A stretch of DNA of 37,012 nt from a virus. Below the pieces are notes generated by a model. That model did no database searches and was not told the origin of the DNA. It saw only the letters and a program-made list of their open reading frames with translations. Every line of letters starts with the position of its first letter. Positions within the stretch are counted from its first letter, which is position 1. The stretch lies in the IMG/VR virus record IMGVR_UViG_3300009593_000051, positions 1 through 37,012 of that record. One strand, written 5' to 3'. Made by a program: the position numbers and the translations under genes. Positions 1 through 11,594 of the stretch are shown here, piece by piece.

Positions 1-122
1 CTCGTGCTGCTGAACTCGTTCTAACCAACGACTTGGCTGCTGAAGCTGCTACTGCTCGTGCTGCTGAACTCGTTCTAACCAACGACTTGGCTTCTGAAGC
101 TGCTACTGCTCGTGCTGCTGAA
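1..122 (+). repeat. 54-bp in-frame tandem repeat
   Basis: Bases 1-54 and 55-108 are two copies of a 54-bp unit that differ at one base (gGCTGCTg versus gGCTTCTg). A third copy starts at 109 and matches for 14 bases before diverging. The unit is 18 codons, so copy-number changes keep the frame. The array may continue to the left of the window. Confidence 0.9.
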
Positions 123-341
123 GGTGCTAACGCTGCTGCTATCTCTGCTGAAGAGACTCGTGCTCTTGCTGCTGAAGGTCTTCTCGATGCTCGCCAGTCA
201 ATCATGGAAGGTATGCTTGCCTTTACCGGTAACGGTTCTGGCGGTGGCGCTCTAGTTCTTACAGACCAAGGCGTCGCTGGTGATGTTGTCACCTTGACCT
301 TTGCTGTAGACAATGGCGTCAAGATGCTTACAATCTCCTAA
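3..341 (+). CDS. Repeat-containing coiled-coil virion protein, 3' end only
   Basis: The reading frame is open from the left edge, so this is the C-terminal 112 residues of a longer protein. The first part is an alanine-rich heptad-like repeat (unit RAAELVLTNDLAAEAATA, 18 residues, almost two identical copies) that decays into related units such as AISAEETRALAAEG. The last ~45 residues (from DARQSIMEGM onward) form a different, glycine/valine-rich segment that looks like a beta-structured tip. Alanine-rich 'ExARAxAAE' repeats are common in structural and fibre proteins of marine T4-like phages; that family knowledge and the tail-gene context are the basis for calling it structural. Its exact role (fibre, neck, head decoration) cannot be read from this end. 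It is followed by a strong terminator at 389-420. Confidence 0.7.
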   Translation, partial: RAAELVLTNDLAAEAATARAAELVLTNDLASEAATARAAEGANAAAISAEETRALAAEGLLDARQSIMEGMLAFTGNGSGGGALVLTDQGVAGDVVTLTFAVDNGVKMLTIS

Positions 342-437: not shown

Positions 438-1025
438 ATGCCCAAAAAAAAGAACATAAAGAAGCTGATCCTTCAATCTCAATTTGTAACGGAAGATTTT
501 GAAGACTCAGGAGAGAAGCTGTCCAAATATCTAGATGAGTTTTATAAGGCTTTCCCAGAAGAATATAAGAAAATGAAAGCACAACAGATGAAAGAAGCGG
601 AAGCAAACGCTAATTCTCCAGGAGAAGAAGCAGAAGATCCGGATGGTGAACATGAAGCCAAAGAAAAACATCCTAAGTCCGACACTATGAAGGCACTTTA
701 CAGGCGTATAACGAAGATTACACACCCCGACAAGGTAGAGTCCGACTTTCTAACTTCTTGCTTCAAAAAAGCTTCTAAAGCTTACTCTGAAGATAACATA
801 GCTGACCTATTTACGATTGCCGCAACACTAAACATAGATGTTTCAGATCTTGACGCTGAACAGGTGGTAACGGATTTAGAAGAGTCTATTGTGGAGAAAA
901 CTTCCTCTATCCAAAATATGAAAGGAAGTTTTGCGTGGGCTTGGGCTCATGCGGAAACTGATGAGCAAAGGGAATATATCAAAAAACAAGTTGATGATTT
1001 CATGAAAACCAACTACCCTGATTAA
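438..1025 (+). CDS. J-domain (DnaJ-like) protein
   Basis: This 195-residue protein has a J-domain signature in its middle: MKALYRRITKITHPDK (about residues 84-99, HPD at 96-98) followed by a helix FKKASKAYSEDNIADLF that matches helix III of J domains. In that family the HPD tripeptide stimulates the ATPase of DnaK/Hsp70. The N-terminal ~80 residues are charged, with an acidic stretch around 60-75. The C-terminal part is helical and ends NYPD. There is no G/F region and no zinc-finger CxxCxGxG repeat, so it is not a full DnaJ. A plausible role is recruiting host DnaK for virion assembly or replication; this is inference. A weak AAGGA lies 12 bases upstream of the ATG. Confidence 0.72.
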   Translation: MPKKKNIKKLILQSQFVTEDFEDSGEKLSKYLDEFYKAFPEEYKKMKAQQMKEAEANANSPGEEAEDPDGEHEAKEKHPKSDTMKALYRRITKITHPDKVESDFLTSCFKKASKAYSEDNIADLFTIAATLNIDVSDLDAEQVVTDLEESIVEKTSSIQNMKGSFAWAWAHAETDEQREYIKKQVDDFMKTNYPD

Positions 1026-1495: not shown

Positions 1496-2752
1496 CTAAG
1501 GTCCTAGGCACAAATCCTCAAAGATCGCTTTGATTTGTTCAAAAACTGTTTGGGAGTTTGTCACGGGAGTATATAATTTGCCTGGGTCATTGTCTACACA
1601 AGCCAAGAAAGAATTATGATGTTCTTGGAGCGCAAACACATATAGTTTATACCCATTTTCCGCAGCTATCATCGCTACTTGGGGACAACTTGTTCCTGTG
1701 ATGGTTTGTGCTATTTCATCAGTCATTGTTATTATTACTTTTTGTGAAAGTGGGTTCCATGCAAACGGATAAGTCTGATCCATGGTCCAAAGCATTGTAT
1801 CTATTGTTGGCTCCTGACCTGCACTCGGTATCATTCTGGCGGCTTCGAGGATCTCTAAGAACTCATCAGCCAGAACAAAATCAGACACCATTGAGGAGTA
1901 CATATGAGGAGGGCGTATTTCTCCGTTTGAGGCAGTACCTACAACAACGAGCCCAAAGCGAAAATTACTAGTTATGGGGTCGTCTAATAACGGTTCGATT
2001 CCTCTTATCATTGATTCTATCTCATCATCAAATGATCCTGATATATCGAGAACAAAAACTAAATCTACACCACGAGAATCAAAGCCTTCATCAACCTCTC
2101 CGTCACAGTCGTTATCAAGATTGTCGCATATTTCAGCTATGGGTAATATCTGACCATCGCAAGGTCCATCAAAGCCACCATCTTGACAATATCGGACGCC
2201 GGCACGACATTCTCCAACAGCCATTGTGCCATCCGGACCTTCATAACACACTACTGCTGTAGAATTGACTATTCCCTCATCAATTGATCCATCACAGTTG
2301 TTGTCTAGCCCATCACAAATCTCTTCGGATGGTCCTGTGTGTCCATCGCACCGTAAAGCTCCGTTATCGCATTTCATAATACCTGGAGTACATATACCCA
2401 CACCGTAGTCAGCGCCTTCAATAAACCCACAAAGTTGGTGTTGCTCGGGGAAGCTATCATCTATGCCGGCACTACAATCATTGTCTATTCCATCACATAT
2501 TTCCTCGGATGGACCTGCGGCTCCTACACATTCTGACCATCCTTGAAATGTACATGTTTTGATTCCATAAGAACACTGTCCAGGAAGATTGGGAATGGGG
2601 TCTGTGACGGCATTAGGGTAGTCCACGCCATCGTGACCACACACTACCTTGTGACCCGGTGTACACTCTAAACGAATAAGCTCTTCTTGATCCAGGCATG
2701 AACTACAGCCAGACATTGCGAGTATTATTATCACAGAGGCGTGTTTTTTCAT
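1496..2752 (-). CDS. Lipoprotein with MopE-type motifs and VWA domain
   Basis: A 418-residue predicted lipoprotein. The start at 2752 gives MKKHASVIIILAMSGC, a charged n-region, a hydrophobic core and a lipobox-like MSGC with the lipidated Cys at residue 16; an upstream in-frame ATG at 2773 would add seven residues. Residues ~84-223 contain three cysteine/acidic motifs of the form EICDxxDNDC (EICDGIDNDC, EICDGLDNNC, EICDNLDNDC), each followed by an acidic stretch; these match the 'putative metal-binding MopE' motif. From ~230 to the end is a von Willebrand factor A domain with MIDAS motif DISGS (236-240) and a later MTDE. A metal-dependent adhesion or protein-binding role at the cell surface is inferred. 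The ATGA overlap with the upstream gene implies translational coupling. MopE plus VWA proteins are typical of bacterial, not phage, genomes, so the gene is probably host-derived. Confidence 0.85.
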   Translation of the reverse strand: MKKHASVIIILAMSGCSSCLDQEELIRLECTPGHKVVCGHDGVDYPNAVTDPIPNLPGQCSYGIKTCTFQGWSECVGAAGPSEEICDGIDNDCSAGIDDSFPEQHQLCGFIEGADYGVGICTPGIMKCDNGALRCDGHTGPSEEICDGLDNNCDGSIDEGIVNSTAVVCYEGPDGTMAVGECRAGVRYCQDGGFDGPCDGQILPIAEICDNLDNDCDGEVDEGFDSRGVDLVFVLDISGSFDDEIESMIRGIEPLLDDPITSNFRFGLVVVGTASNGEIRPPHMYSSMVSDFVLADEFLEILEAARMIPSAGQEPTIDTMLWTMDQTYPFAWNPLSQKVIITMTDEIAQTITGTSCPQVAMIAAENGYKLYVFALQEHHNSFLACVDNDPGKLYTPVTNSQTVFEQIKAIFEDLCLGP

Positions 2753-3219
2753 CTCATAACAGACTCCACGCAAGATTCATAAGAATCATATAGGTTCATA
2801 ACCATAGCAGTGCTGTTAAATATTCTAAATTTCAAAGAGTTCAGGGGTAATTTATTGATATGATAGGACGATGTCATCAACAAAGGGGGAGATGATTTTG
2901 CTCGACCAGGGAAATTAAACGCTAATATTAGGGTGTTATTATTAGCAACTTCTAATAGTCCTTCAATATAACCATGTGCCTCAGCCTCGGGAATCCCTAT
3001 TTGTACCGCAGCAGCGGCTCCTGGGAGATCAATTAAATCTTGGCTTATGTGAAATACCCACTTGCAGTTATCGTTTTGTCCCGGAGTATAGTAAATCGCA
3101 TTTTTAGGGATAAGGGTCTTATTTTCGTTATTCGCCCTGATGTAGAGATATGCAGAAACTACCAATACTAAAGTTAATATTGCTAGAAGTGATGTTCTTA
3201 CTTTTTTTATAGTTGTCAA
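2749..3219 (-). CDS. Membrane-anchored hypothetical protein, TTG start
   Basis: A 156-residue protein beginning MTTIKKVRTSLLAILTLVLVVSAYL, a basic n-region and a hydrophobic segment (about residues 9-27) acting as a signal anchor or uncleaved signal peptide. The remainder would be periplasmic, with two cysteines (residues ~52 and ~151). The start is TTG, chosen because AAAGGAGGG lies about five bases upstream and the signal sequence begins there. The ribosome binding site overlaps the stop codon of the preceding gene, and its own TGA overlaps the start of the VWA lipoprotein (ATGA), so the three leftward genes form one operon. The family is not recognised. Confidence 0.75.
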   Translation of the reverse strand: MTTIKKVRTSLLAILTLVLVVSAYLYIRANNENKTLIPKNAIYYTPGQNDNCKWVFHISQDLIDLPGAAAAVQIGIPEAEAHGYIEGLLEVANNNTLILAFNFPGRAKSSPPLLMTSSYHINKLPLNSLKFRIFNSTAMVMNLYDSYESCVESVMR

Positions 3220-3230
3220 AACACCCTCCT

Positions 3231-3485
3231 TTATTGGAGAGGTTGGGGCCGAGGCTGCTCTCCTTTTGGCATGTAGATGATAAATGGCATCTTCTTTATT
3301 TCATTAATAAGTAGATTTTTGTTAGCGGTTTTTGGTTTTTTCTCTATCCAAAAAAGAATTTGATTCGTTTCTTGTACTTTTCCTACATATGACCACTGAC
3401 CATTGATCTTTTCCCAGACTTGAGGTAATTCAGCCTTGGGGGCAGCTAGAGCTATGATTCCTGATAAAATTACACTACTAAACAT
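3231..3485 (-). CDS. Small secreted hypothetical protein
   Basis: An 84-residue protein with a short N-terminal signal sequence (MFSSVILSGIIALAAPKA, likely cleavage after ALA or PKA). The mature part of ~65 residues contains a pattern of aromatic and basic residues (VWEKINGQWSYVGK, ILFWIEKKP) and a proline-rich C-terminus. It is the first gene of the leftward operon and has AGGAAATAAAA before its ATG. The family is not recognised; its position with a membrane-anchored protein and a lipoprotein suggests a shared envelope function. Confidence 0.7.
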   Translation of the reverse strand: MFSSVILSGIIALAAPKAELPQVWEKINGQWSYVGKVQETNQILFWIEKKPKTANKNLLINEIKKMPFIIYMPKGEQPRPQPLQ

Positions 3486-3565
3486 TTTTATTTCCTACCT
3501 TCGTGGTAAATTTAAAATTCACTCACTGTGGATAAATAGTGTTCGTTTATGATAGTTACTATACT
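3486..3565. promoter_or_regulatory. Divergent intergenic region between envelope genes
   Basis: These 80 bases separate the leftward secreted/lipoprotein operon from the rightward protease gene and should hold promoters for both. The only notable element is GATAAATAG at 3531-3539. Read rightward it resembles a T4-type late promoter (TATAAATA, 7 of 8) 35 bases before the protease ATG. Read leftward it is ACTATTTATC, like the elements at 1028 and 5689. No convincing sigma70 -35/-10 pair was seen. Confidence 0.35.
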
Positions 3566-4447
3566 ATGACAAAAAAACACACGATTTCCGTACTGTTACT
3601 TATTTTAGGTTCCGTTGCCAGTTGCACTAGTGGTTGTGTCTCACTTAGGTCCATTCATGATGACTCAGTACAAGAATTACCCCGTAAATCTTTTGTTCAG
3701 ATTCAACATGCTATAACAATGGAAGGTTGTAAAATAAACCCCGAAACAAAAAAAGAAGAGTGCCAAAAAGCAGTGGGCAGGTCAGTTTCTTCGGGAGCCT
3801 ATGTTTTCATAAGTGAAGTGTCGTATGATACTGCTTATGTTCTTACTGCTGGTCATTCATGCCAAAACAAGGTACCAAAAAAACAAATGGTCGATGGTTT
3901 TGTCATAAAGAACCTCGGGTCAGAATTCCGAGTTGTAAATCTCGATGGAACATTTAATAAGGCTGAAGTTGTTAGTATAAATTCTAGATTTGACCTGTGT
4001 GTCCTCAGGGTATCTAATGTATTGATACACAAACCTATACTAAAAACAGCCCTAACACCGCCAAAACCTGGGGATACAGTTTATAATTTGGCAGCACCCC
4101 ATGGCTTGTTTTGGCCCAATGCTGTGTTGATATTCCGGGGTATTTTTTCGGGGTATCATACCCGAGGGTACTCGGTTTATACAATTCCTACCAAACCTGG
4201 ATCGAGTGGATCTCCTATTATCAACAAGGCAGGTCATTTGGTGGGGGTAATTTTTGCGGGTTATCCTGTGATGGAAAATATTGGTCTTTCTTCTCCGCTT
4301 GTTGCTATTAAGATATTCTTGAAAAAAGCTATAGCCCAAGGTGAGATGAAGTTGTGGGAAGAAACTAACCGACCAGTAAAAGGTAAATCTACCATTGGCA
4401 GATGGGTGAAAGATCTAAATATCAAACTACAAAGCCATTTTAAATAA
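3566..4447 (+). CDS. Trypsin-like serine protease lipoprotein
   Basis: A 293-residue protein starting MTKKHTISVLLLILGSVASC, with lipobox VASC, so it is predicted to be exported and lipid-anchored. A GTG at 3539 could extend it by nine residues but would put non-signal-like sequence before the hydrophobic core. The catalytic triad of the chymotrypsin/S1 fold is visible: His in YVLTAGHSC (residue ~97), Asp in FDLCVLRV (~143) and Ser in KPGSSGSPI (~214). The domain fills most of the protein; no PDZ domain is visible, so it is not DegP-like in full. It probably cleaves proteins in the periplasm or at the surface. It is divergent from the leftward envelope operon and separated from it by 80 bases. 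Confidence 0.88.
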   Translation: MTKKHTISVLLLILGSVASCTSGCVSLRSIHDDSVQELPRKSFVQIQHAITMEGCKINPETKKEECQKAVGRSVSSGAYVFISEVSYDTAYVLTAGHSCQNKVPKKQMVDGFVIKNLGSEFRVVNLDGTFNKAEVVSINSRFDLCVLRVSNVLIHKPILKTALTPPKPGDTVYNLAAPHGLFWPNAVLIFRGIFSGYHTRGYSVYTIPTKPGSSGSPIINKAGHLVGVIFAGYPVMENIGLSSPLVAIKIFLKKAIAQGEMKLWEETNRPVKGKSTIGRWVKDLNIKLQSHFK

Positions 4448-9225: not shown

Positions 9226-9548
9226 GGGGGTGACTGGAATCGACTGACGGAGAAATTGAAAAGGTGCAAGGGTGAGGGAAGCGTGGCTCACTAAAAACGC
9301 TTAAATCTATAACTGCAAACAATAACGCAGAACTAGCACTAGCAGCTTAAAAACCTGGCTACGCTTGAGGTGACGACAACCAAAAAACAGAAAGTCGTAG
9401 TATGTTGAGTAAGAGCTTTTGATTGTTTATGCCGCAAATGAACGACCTAGTCTAGATCTTTACTGACGATAAATGTAAAGACAACCTTGTGAATGACCTT
9501 GATATAGATACGGACAAGACGGGAGTTCGAATCTCCCCACCTCCACCA
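9226..9548 (+). ncRNA. ssrA: tmRNA (transfer-messenger RNA), one-piece
   Basis: A complete 323-nt tmRNA. The acceptor stem pairs GGGGGTG (9226-9232) with CACCTCC (9538-9544), followed by the discriminator A and an encoded CCA (9546-9548). The third pair is the G3-U70 wobble that marks alanine identity. The 5' tract TGACTGGAATCGAC is the characteristic tmRNA D-region, and the T arm is GGGAG-TTCGAAT-CTCCC. The tag frame (9315-9350) is GCA AAC AAT AAC GCA GAA CTA GCA CTA GCA GCT TAA, giving ANNNAELALAA then stop; the LAA end is the classic degron recognised by ClpXP. It rescues stalled ribosomes and tags incomplete proteins. No smpB gene is in the window, so it would rely on host SmpB or a copy elsewhere. 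Confidence 0.97.
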
Positions 9549-9630: not shown

Positions 9631-10935
9631 ATGAAAAAAACTATTATCTTAGATACAAATGTATACCTCACTGAGGCAGGTTCCATATTAGCATTCGGGA
9701 CGGATGATATTGCAGTGCCAACAATCGTTCTAGATGAGATAGATAAACATAAACACAGACAAGACACCGCAGGATTAAATGCTCGGACTATGAATAGGGT
9801 CCTCGATTCTTTGCGCAGTGAGGGGAGTTTAATGGATGGTGTCTCCCTGGGGGATCGACGGGGCAACATTTTTGCTGCTCACTTTGATGAGAACTATATG
9901 CCACCTGGGATGAAAGAGGATGATTCCGATAATAAAATAATTGCTATTGCTCTCCGGCTTATTGAAGAGGGGCATACAATAGCAGTAGTTTCCCGTGATT
10001 TAAATATGCGAGTCAAATGTGACGCTCATGGGATAGAATGCCATGATTACCAACCACAAAAGGTAATAAGCTCAGTCGAGAATCTGTTTGACGGCACCCA
10101 AACAATTGAATGTGATTTCAGTATGATTGATAAGTTTTATAGTGGCGAACCATCTTATCTGCCTGAGGGAGAGCATAATCTTTATCCTAATCAGTATCTA
10201 CTATTGAAGAGTGGAGACAGCAATAAATCAGCAATCTGTAGGTTCATAAACTATCAGTCTCCTTTACAGAAAATAAACAAATATAAAAACATATGGGGAC
10301 TAAAAGCCAACAACAAAGAACAGCAGTATGCAATGGATCTTCTTTTCGATAGGGGAGTGGAAATTATTTCCCTGACTGGTCCTGCTGGTACTGGAAAGAC
10401 GCTCTTAGCCACGGCTTGCGGTCTGGAACAGGTTTTTAATACGACAAGTTCTAAAGGTGGGTACGATAAGCTTATTATCACTAGACCTGTTCAGCCCATG
10501 GGGAGGGATATAGGATTCCTGCCTGGTACTCTTGAGGAAAAAATGATGCCATGGATTGCTCCTATCAGAGATAATCTGGAGCAGTTATTCGGCGACCGTG
10601 GCGCACTAGATATGCACATAGAACAAGGATCCATCGAAATAGAAGCCATGACTTACATCCGAGGTCGCTCCATTTCTAACGCTTTTATGATAGTGGACGA
10701 GGCGCAGAACTTAACAGCCCATGAACTAAAGACTATAATAACTAGAGTTGGGCATGGTACCAAGCTCGTACTGACTGGCGATATTCAACAGATTGATAAT
10801 TCTTATGTGGACTCGGTTTCAAATGGCTTAACACATGCTGTTGAAAAATTCAAGACCCATGAATTAGCAGGTCACATTACCCTTATCAAAGGGGAGAGGT
10901 CAAAGTTAGCAACTTTAGCATCGGAAATTTTATGA
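9631..10935 (+). CDS. phoH: PhoH-family protein, PIN domain plus ATPase
   Basis: A 434-residue protein. The N-terminal PIN domain (about 1-140) begins KKTIILDTNVYL, with catalytic-type Asp8 and further acidic residues (VLDEIDKH, DDSDNKI, SRDLN). The C-terminal PhoH ATPase has Walker A GPAGTGKT (250-257), ITRPVQPMG, Walker B MIVDEAQN (353-360) and LTGDIQQID. This is the PhoH2 arrangement, in which the ATPase/RNA helicase partners a ribonuclease; phoH is widespread in marine phages although its role there is unsettled. The ATG at 9631 follows GCGGGGATATT; a TTG directly before it is less likely. Its stop overlaps the next start (ATGA). Confidence 0.94.
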   Translation: MKKTIILDTNVYLTEAGSILAFGTDDIAVPTIVLDEIDKHKHRQDTAGLNARTMNRVLDSLRSEGSLMDGVSLGDRRGNIFAAHFDENYMPPGMKEDDSDNKIIAIALRLIEEGHTIAVVSRDLNMRVKCDAHGIECHDYQPQKVISSVENLFDGTQTIECDFSMIDKFYSGEPSYLPEGEHNLYPNQYLLLKSGDSNKSAICRFINYQSPLQKINKYKNIWGLKANNKEQQYAMDLLFDRGVEIISLTGPAGTGKTLLATACGLEQVFNTTSSKGGYDKLIITRPVQPMGRDIGFLPGTLEEKMMPWIAPIRDNLEQLFGDRGALDMHIEQGSIEIEAMTYIRGRSISNAFMIVDEAQNLTAHELKTIITRVGHGTKLVLTGDIQQIDNSYVDSVSNGLTHAVEKFKTHELAGHITLIKGERSKLATLASEIL

Positions 10936-11594
10936 TTGATTACATTACAGAGAAAGTAAAAGACACCCCTCGATATTTTCGCTTTGGAGGCATAGATGTG
11001 GTTCAGGGCGATGACCTGCCAGATAATGTCAATATGGATGCTGTGTTTCGTACTATAGAAGCCGCCCTGCCCCCTCATTTTTTGCGGAAGTTAAAGGGAG
11101 TAAAGATTAAACATCTAGATTTCTTTAATGATAGAAATGCGTCTGCGTTTTATAAAGACGGAATTCTTCACATCACCAGTGATCAAGATAGTAACAATGA
11201 TCTTATTAATGACATATGTCACGAGTTAGGACACCATGTTGAGGAACTTTATCCTTCTGAGATCTATGAAGATACAGAAGTTGCGGAAGAGTTTTTGCGA
11301 AAAAGAAAGCAGCTAAAGTCTGAAATCCAATCCGAAGGGTATTGGGTAAGTGAGTACAACTTTCAAGAATTAGCGTACAATGATAAGTTTGATAATTTCT
11401 TGTATAAGCGCCTAGGTAAAACGATGTTGCGCATGGTGACAGCCGGGATTTTTATAAGACCATACGCCTCAGTGTCATTGAGAGAATATTTTGCTACAGG
11501 TTTTGAGGCTTATTACTGTGGTAATAAGGAATCTCTTCATAAAGTAAGTCCTATTTTGTACAAAAAGATAGACACTCTCCACAATTTAGTGTAA
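10932..11594 (+). CDS. Putative zinc metalloprotease (HELGH)
   Basis: A 220-residue protein with the zincin signature ICHELGHHVEE (His97, Glu98, His101). A later conserved-looking acidic segment, SLREYFATGFEAYY, supplies possible third ligands Glu185 or Glu192, which would make it a gluzincin-like enzyme. There is no signal peptide, so it would act in the cytoplasm or inside the virion. Coupling to phoH by an ATGA overlap suggests coordinated expression. The target is unknown; processing of a virion precursor or a host protein is possible. Confidence 0.75.
   Translation: MIDYITEKVKDTPRYFRFGGIDVVQGDDLPDNVNMDAVFRTIEAALPPHFLRKLKGVKIKHLDFFNDRNASAFYKDGILHITSDQDSNNDLINDICHELGHHVEELYPSEIYEDTEVAEEFLRKRKQLKSEIQSEGYWVSEYNFQELAYNDKFDNFLYKRLGKTMLRMVTAGIFIRPYASVSLREYFATGFEAYYCGNKESLHKVSPILYKKIDTLHNLV

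Follow-up and report, generated by a model that had tools for sequence, protein, structure and literature searches.

The mechanism has been solved for two phage lipoproteins of the outer membrane, T5 Llp and Rtp45: each blocks superinfection by altering a receptor, FhuA in the case of Llp and LptDE in that of Rtp45 (PMC9586334, PMC12685063). Both are single small proteins (Rtp45 is about 6 kDa) whose effect depends on binding, and neither is proteolytic. Spanins of the Rz/Rz1 type consist of an inner-membrane protein and a lipoprotein encoded by adjacent, overlapping genes, and the i-spanin has an N-terminal TM helix and a periplasmic coiled coil (PMC6139136). Among cellular proteins, the DegS/HtrA envelope proteases possess a chymotrypsin-fold catalytic triad, and MopE-bearing proteins are common in the genomes of Myxococcota and Deltaproteobacteria. 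Metal-dependent VWA recognition is coupled to a trypsin-like protease in complement factor B, which is eukaryotic and a single polypeptide; its likeness to the locus described here is one of working principle only and is not meant as overall homology.

The DNA analyzed here (hereinafter the window) is a 37,012-base IMG/VR virus record. It is part of a large myophage-like genome and encodes PhoH, glycosyltransferases, an M23 peptidase, a baseplate wedge protein, and, in a 2082-aa open reading frame, a protein of the size of a tape-measure protein. A block of four genes in the window probably serves to remodel the infected cell's envelope:

1496..2752, minus strand: VWA/MopE lipoprotein, 418 aa (Pfam matches over cut-off)
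2749..3219, minus strand: TM156, 156 aa, TTG start (AlphaFold2 model and family A5)
3231..3485, minus strand: sec84, a small exported protein, 84 aa (profile matches in all block loci)
3486..3565, no strand: divergent intergenic region, 80 nt (intergenic regions of 31 blocks compared)
3566..4447, plus strand: trypsin-like serine protease lipoprotein, 293 aa (Trypsin_2 and catalytic triad)

The initial annotation had placed four exported-protein genes at 1496-4447, three running leftward and one divergent; all four are present and the layout was described correctly. The start codons given there, a TTG at 2773 for the VWA gene and a GTG at 3539 for the protease gene, are to be replaced with the ATG codons at 2752 and 3566, respectively, both of which are backed by the family alignments. 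The ATG at 2752 overlaps the TM156 stop codon in an ATGA. The assignment of two lipoproteins holds, the VWA protein and the protease being the only ones among the 30 predicted window proteins to match a PROSITE-like lipoprotein pattern, and the VWA (MIDAS) domain, the three MopE motifs and the trypsin-like protease are likewise borne out by Pfam scores over the cut-offs and by conservation of the key residues.

The VWA protein combines a lipoprotein signal (Cys16) with three MopE-type loops and a C-terminal VWA domain. The loops take the motif form of repeated CDGxDNxC...D units and account for three stretches matching Cu-binding_MopE (Pfam PF11617; 41.9 bits, cut-off 27), MopE-type being the name of a Pfam motif that does not imply copper binding, and the VWA domain matches Pfam PF00092 at 27.2 bits (cut-off 23.8). 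In an alignment of 29 sequences, residues D236-x-S238-x-S240 and D345 of the MIDAS are invariant and position 316 is occupied by T or S; the cysteines of the MopE region are largely invariant among the 29 relatives. The PROSITE-like lipoprotein pattern is found in 37 of 40 VWA relatives. A scan of cellular genomes with the VWA family returned mostly MopE proteins of Myxococcota and Deltaproteobacteria, which have the MopE region alone in common with it. The MopE-motif and VWA proteins of these bacteria resemble the VWA protein of the block in their cysteine-rich MopE-type loops but differ from it with respect to the phage VWA-domain profile, for which the sole match among the best 80 cellular-genome loci is a phage contig, L217. 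This contig (PBOB01000020.1), which comes from the Tara Red Sea data and is filed in an Acidiferrobacteraceae MAG, is phage-like, with peptide-deformylase-, DnaJ- and baseplate-like ORFs recognized by eye; its VWA lipoprotein gene precedes one for a trypsin-like lipoprotein. G008, a block-bearing phage, has a second protein with the MopE motif, which lies in an open frame of 696 aa near 798-998 (plus strand) of G008:C1.

The protease matches Trypsin_2 (Pfam PF13365) at 53.9 bits (cut-off 27.6), its triad of His97, Asp143 and Ser214 is invariant in 32 sequences, and its lipobox Cys20 is invariant in the family alignment; across the family, the PROSITE-like lipoprotein pattern is present in 22 of 40 members and a stricter lipobox in 31 of 40. 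The enzyme has an S1, HtrA-like fold, and its profile is closest to HtrA chains. Although it shares the chymotrypsin-fold triad with the DegS/HtrA proteases, it differs from them in being lipid-anchored, in having no PDZ domain detectable with Pfam, and in scoring 16.3 bits with the DegS model, far under the cut-off of 422.95. Comparison with the PADLOC models of anti-phage defence gave weak generic similarity for the protease (best 23.7 bits) and no match for the VWA protein, TM156 or sec84. In lineage iii (see below), a second, distant trypsin-like lipoprotein is encoded on the opposite side of the VWA gene (L046:11250-12020, L049:11250-12032, L051:11323-12096 and L052:11233-12003, all on the minus strand).

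The remaining two proteins belong to no known family. TM156 consists of a cytoplasmic tail of about 8-14 residues, one N-terminal hydrophobic (TM) helix, and a periplasmic part modelled by AlphaFold2 as a beta domain (pLDDT 89), with two invariant cysteines, C52 and C150. No Pfam family is common to its members (family A5, 45 sequences), one weak PHROG match was obtained for 1 of the 45, and a fold search in PDB and BFVD yielded no match at E<=0.001. It was seen solely together with the block: 14 records that have no block but are related or carry a VWA gene do not contain it. The N-terminus of sec84 is short and hydrophobic, with clearer signal peptides in many relatives, and W24, W31, P67 and F68 are invariant in the family. 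Its predicted model is weak (pLDDT 71) and too poor for a fold search. A profile built solely from lineage-i sequences detects sec84 in the divergent lineages, and the protein is present in all block loci.

The intergenic region shared by the two divergent transcription units contains short motifs that are conserved among the relatives: a ACTATTTATCC-type element directed towards sec84, with a match at 3532-3540 on the minus strand, which is present in most of lineage i, and TAGTTACTATACT at 3553-3565 on the plus strand, immediately before the protease ATG, where a TA(T/G)TTACT-type element is found just upstream in several lineages. Similar elements precede other genes of the window (7 against 2.8 expected, with 2 of 100 shuffles as high), which amounts to a modest enrichment. 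We infer that these motifs act as promoters. Between TAGTTACTATACT and the abutting protease ATG there is no clear Shine-Dalgarno sequence, and the same is seen in relatives; the protease mRNA may be leaderless.

Several other features of the window were recorded. The last part of an ORF with alanine-rich repeats (AAEAATARAAEL... units), of a type found in phage fibre coiled coils, occupies positions 1-341 (plus strand). A tmRNA gene at 9226-9548 (plus strand), in an ORF-free gap preceding PhoH, matches Rfam RF00023 at 81.3 bits (cut-off 47) but, in contrast to this match, is not predicted by ARAGORN; a tmRNA is also found at the corresponding place in L006, L020, L302 and L306, and ARAGORN gives the tag ANDDFQLAQAA for that of L306. 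At 10932-11594 (plus strand) lies a predicted metallopeptidase (PHROG metallo-protease, 21 bits); one peptidase-like model of Pfam scores 24.4 bits there, short of its cut-off of 27.4.

The four genes recur together in other viruses. A search with the VWA protein recovered 80 viral loci, 55 of which (L002-L055 and L060) are close relatives with 46-95% identity, and all 55 possess TM156, sec84 and the divergent protease. Starting from TM156 alone, we obtained 51 loci, and all four genes are present in 49 of the 49 newly seen ones; the protease search gave 76 loci with all four genes in all but nine, the exceptions being L182, where the contig end is truncated, and loci whose proteases are more distant. 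Altogether, the complete set is found in the same order and orientation in 48 of 48 distinct TM156-bearing viral blocks, and therefore the arrangement is not due to chance. The initial annotation had proposed this search for co-occurrence as a check, and the conservation of gene order across lineages upholds its view of the four genes as one envelope-targeted unit; its counter-condition, that the genes should never be found together elsewhere, is contradicted by these loci.

Under our own labels, lineage i comprises the window, G006, G020, G042 and others, lineage i' L016/L028, lineage ii G008, G035, G010, G022 and their relatives, lineage iii L044 and L046-L053, and lineage iv G046-G049. Identity between the TerL proteins is 77-83% within lineage i, 67-69% between i and ii, and 47-52% to iv. 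Going by these sequences, the bearers of the block are one clade of large phages, with records of up to 236 kb and at least four lineages; the possibility that the lineages are unrelated phages was rejected given the TerL identity of 47-83%. The flanking genes vary between the lineages, with the block intact, and the block also changes its genomic location, which therefore gives no indication of the timing of its expression. The cultured phages searched contained no match for the VWA protein or TM156 and none carried the block; their closest similarities were 24% identity of the protease to two Staphylococcus phages and at most 32% identity of the baseplate wedge protein. Some records of a sister clade (TerL identity about 61-68%) encode a related trypsin-like protease as well as a MopE/VWA protein, the two at separate sites, and in L062, L071 and L217 the two genes are adjacent in arrangements other than that of the block, a recurrence in other phages that supports the module. 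For the distant VWA loci, a trypsin motif regex missed known cases and iterated profiles were used instead. The VWA-protease pair may be older than the four-gene block.

The VWA gene differs from TM156 and the protease gene in its divergence between lineages. Mean identity between lineages i and ii is 32% for TM156 and 37% for the protease (52% and 59%, respectively, within i), whereas both halves of the VWA protein average 69%, about as within i. This mean alone does not show exchange, because TerL is also 67-69% identical between these lineages; exchange is instead demonstrated by VWA pairs with 90-94% identity combined with the conflict between trees. For example, L012 (lineage ii) and L033 (lineage i) are 94% identical in the VWA domain, 30% in TM156 and 37% in the protease. 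Lineage ii, which was fixed before tree construction as the loci without any other window gene and with shared flanks where read, comes together in the trees of the protease (100/100) and TM156 (99/97) but is rejected as one clade by the AU test for the C-terminal (p=1.6e-5) and N-terminal (p=2.4e-10) parts of the VWA protein. When such contigs are compared by blastn, the main match falls within the VWA gene and begins about 25-60 codons past its start, and therefore the signal peptide and lipobox are not part of it. On a direct reading of these data, the VWA gene has recombined between lineages i and ii, and TM156 and the protease gene have not. Selection for target specificity may drive this exchange, which could also result from hitch-hiking or from easy recombination in a conserved gene.

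With respect to function, we consider it a plausible, if tentative, proposal that the block is an envelope proteolysis module made during infection, with superinfection exclusion or receptor removal as its likeliest purpose. We infer this from what can be read directly, namely the association of the genes, their order, the active-site and MIDAS residues, the two lipoprotein signals, and the exchange of the VWA gene. TM156 would be an inner-membrane protein, and the two lipoproteins would be attached to the outer membrane. Via its metal-dependent MIDAS face, the VWA protein would bind an envelope target, with the MopE loops serving as a stalk stiffened by disulfides or metal, and the tethered serine protease would cut either this target or one of the proteins bound to the target; the lipoprotein pair would be anchored, localised or restrained on the periplasmic side by TM156 and sec84. 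In this manner, a phage receptor would be inactivated or removed, such that infected cells and debris would stop taking up phages. Such an outcome fits best because of the conjunction of a metal-dependent binding lipoprotein, a lipid-anchored protease and a traded binding subunit; moreover, trading of the VWA protein but not of TM156 or the protease accords with a role of the VWA subunit in setting specificity towards a target common to competing phages. The block resembles Llp and Rtp45 in the phage-encoded lipoprotein signals and in the proposed purpose but differs from them in comprising two large lipoproteins, one of them a protease, and two further proteins. A bolder formulation, possible although somewhat doubtful, is that of a proteolytic counter-competition apparatus spanning both membranes, in which the exchangeable, metal-dependent VWA protein sets the target, the lipid-anchored serine protease destroys this target, perhaps aided by a site-2 protease of the phage, and the lineages swap the recognition subunit.

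The mention of a site-2 protease raises another scenario, regulated intramembrane proteolysis (RIP), in which the block protease would be a DegS-like site-1 protease, TM156 its single-pass, N-in substrate, and an M50 protease the site-2 enzyme, the VWA protein and sec84 would sense the envelope, and the cascade would control the timing of infection or envelope stress. In topology TM156 is like the RseA-type substrates, the profile of the protease comes closest to HtrA proteins, and, of 50 block-bearing records, 17 encode an M50 protease (PF02163), among them 6/6 of those of at least 140 kb, as opposed to 0/10 sister-clade records; in lineages ii and iv its gene is found near the block, on a different side in each. 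The association is suggestive but confounded by common descent, and in lineage i the gene is far from the block (about 76 kb in G006) and absent from the 37-kb window fragment. Furthermore, the short tail of TM156 holds no cytoplasmic regulatory domain and leaves no room for an anti-sigma domain, and the protease has no PDZ domain and a marginal DegS score. Any likeness to DegS with RseP-type site-2 proteases would lie in the catalytic triad and in the M50 protease that some of the same phage genomes encode, and unlike those systems there is no anti-sigma factor; we regard such a cascade as unlikely. Phage M50 proteases with the HExGH motif were located at G006:186412-187155, G008:48215-48955 and G048:8423-9175, among others, and are 47-50% identical between lineages.

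The succession of an inner-membrane protein gene and an overlapping lipoprotein gene is a spanin-like order (PMC6139136), and both TM156 and the VWA protein have conserved cysteines, so that the two might work like a two-component spanin; the protease would then weaken the outer membrane or its links as infection ends. Such a role in lysis seems improbable: TM156 has the TM helix of an i-spanin, but its periplasmic part is modelled as strands and not as a coiled coil, the VWA lipoprotein, at 418 aa and of adhesion type, does not resemble Rz1, and a co-adapted spanin pair would not be predicted to exchange the VWA gene alone. Compared with Rz/Rz1, the block has a large MopE/VWA lipoprotein, an extra protease and an extra small exported protein, and no holin, endolysin or other lysis gene was recognized beside it. 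VWA domains with a MIDAS are often adhesive, which, along with the abundance of MopE-bearing proteins in Myxococcota and Deltaproteobacteria, would accord with a putative displayed adhesin-protease pair that cleaves rival agents or changes how cells aggregate, are grazed or are preyed upon, instead of acting on phage receptors. We assign this idea little probability, given that a short-lived lytic infection leaves little time for a benefit and that this leaves the inner-membrane protein without an explained role. Finally, each gene has its own export signal and two strands are used, as could be the case for unrelated cargo genes that are neighbors by accident; this explanation is extremely improbable and is rejected by the co-occurrence of all four genes, in the same order and with different flanks. 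RIP-type signalling and lysis are the chief competitors of the envelope-proteolysis proposal.

In the literature covered by a limited, thin search, the four-gene module, the TM156 and sec84 families and the exchange pattern are undescribed, in agreement with the statement of the initial annotation that no described phage system has this set; within the same limits, no paper was found on phage-encoded site-2 proteases, nor one treating trypsin-like proteins and the vWA domain together in a marine phage genome. The VWA, MopE and trypsin domains are already known, and what appears to be new is the anatomy of the module. If the function is superinfection exclusion, the block would be a new variant of that strategy.

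The block is a multi-gene envelope module that is conserved across a large clade of phages and apparently undescribed, and two of its four proteins fall in no known family. If receptors are removed by proteolysis, this would be a form of superinfection control unlike that exerted by the known small binding lipoproteins, and the exchange of the VWA gene alone makes the idea that this subunit sets specificity directly testable.
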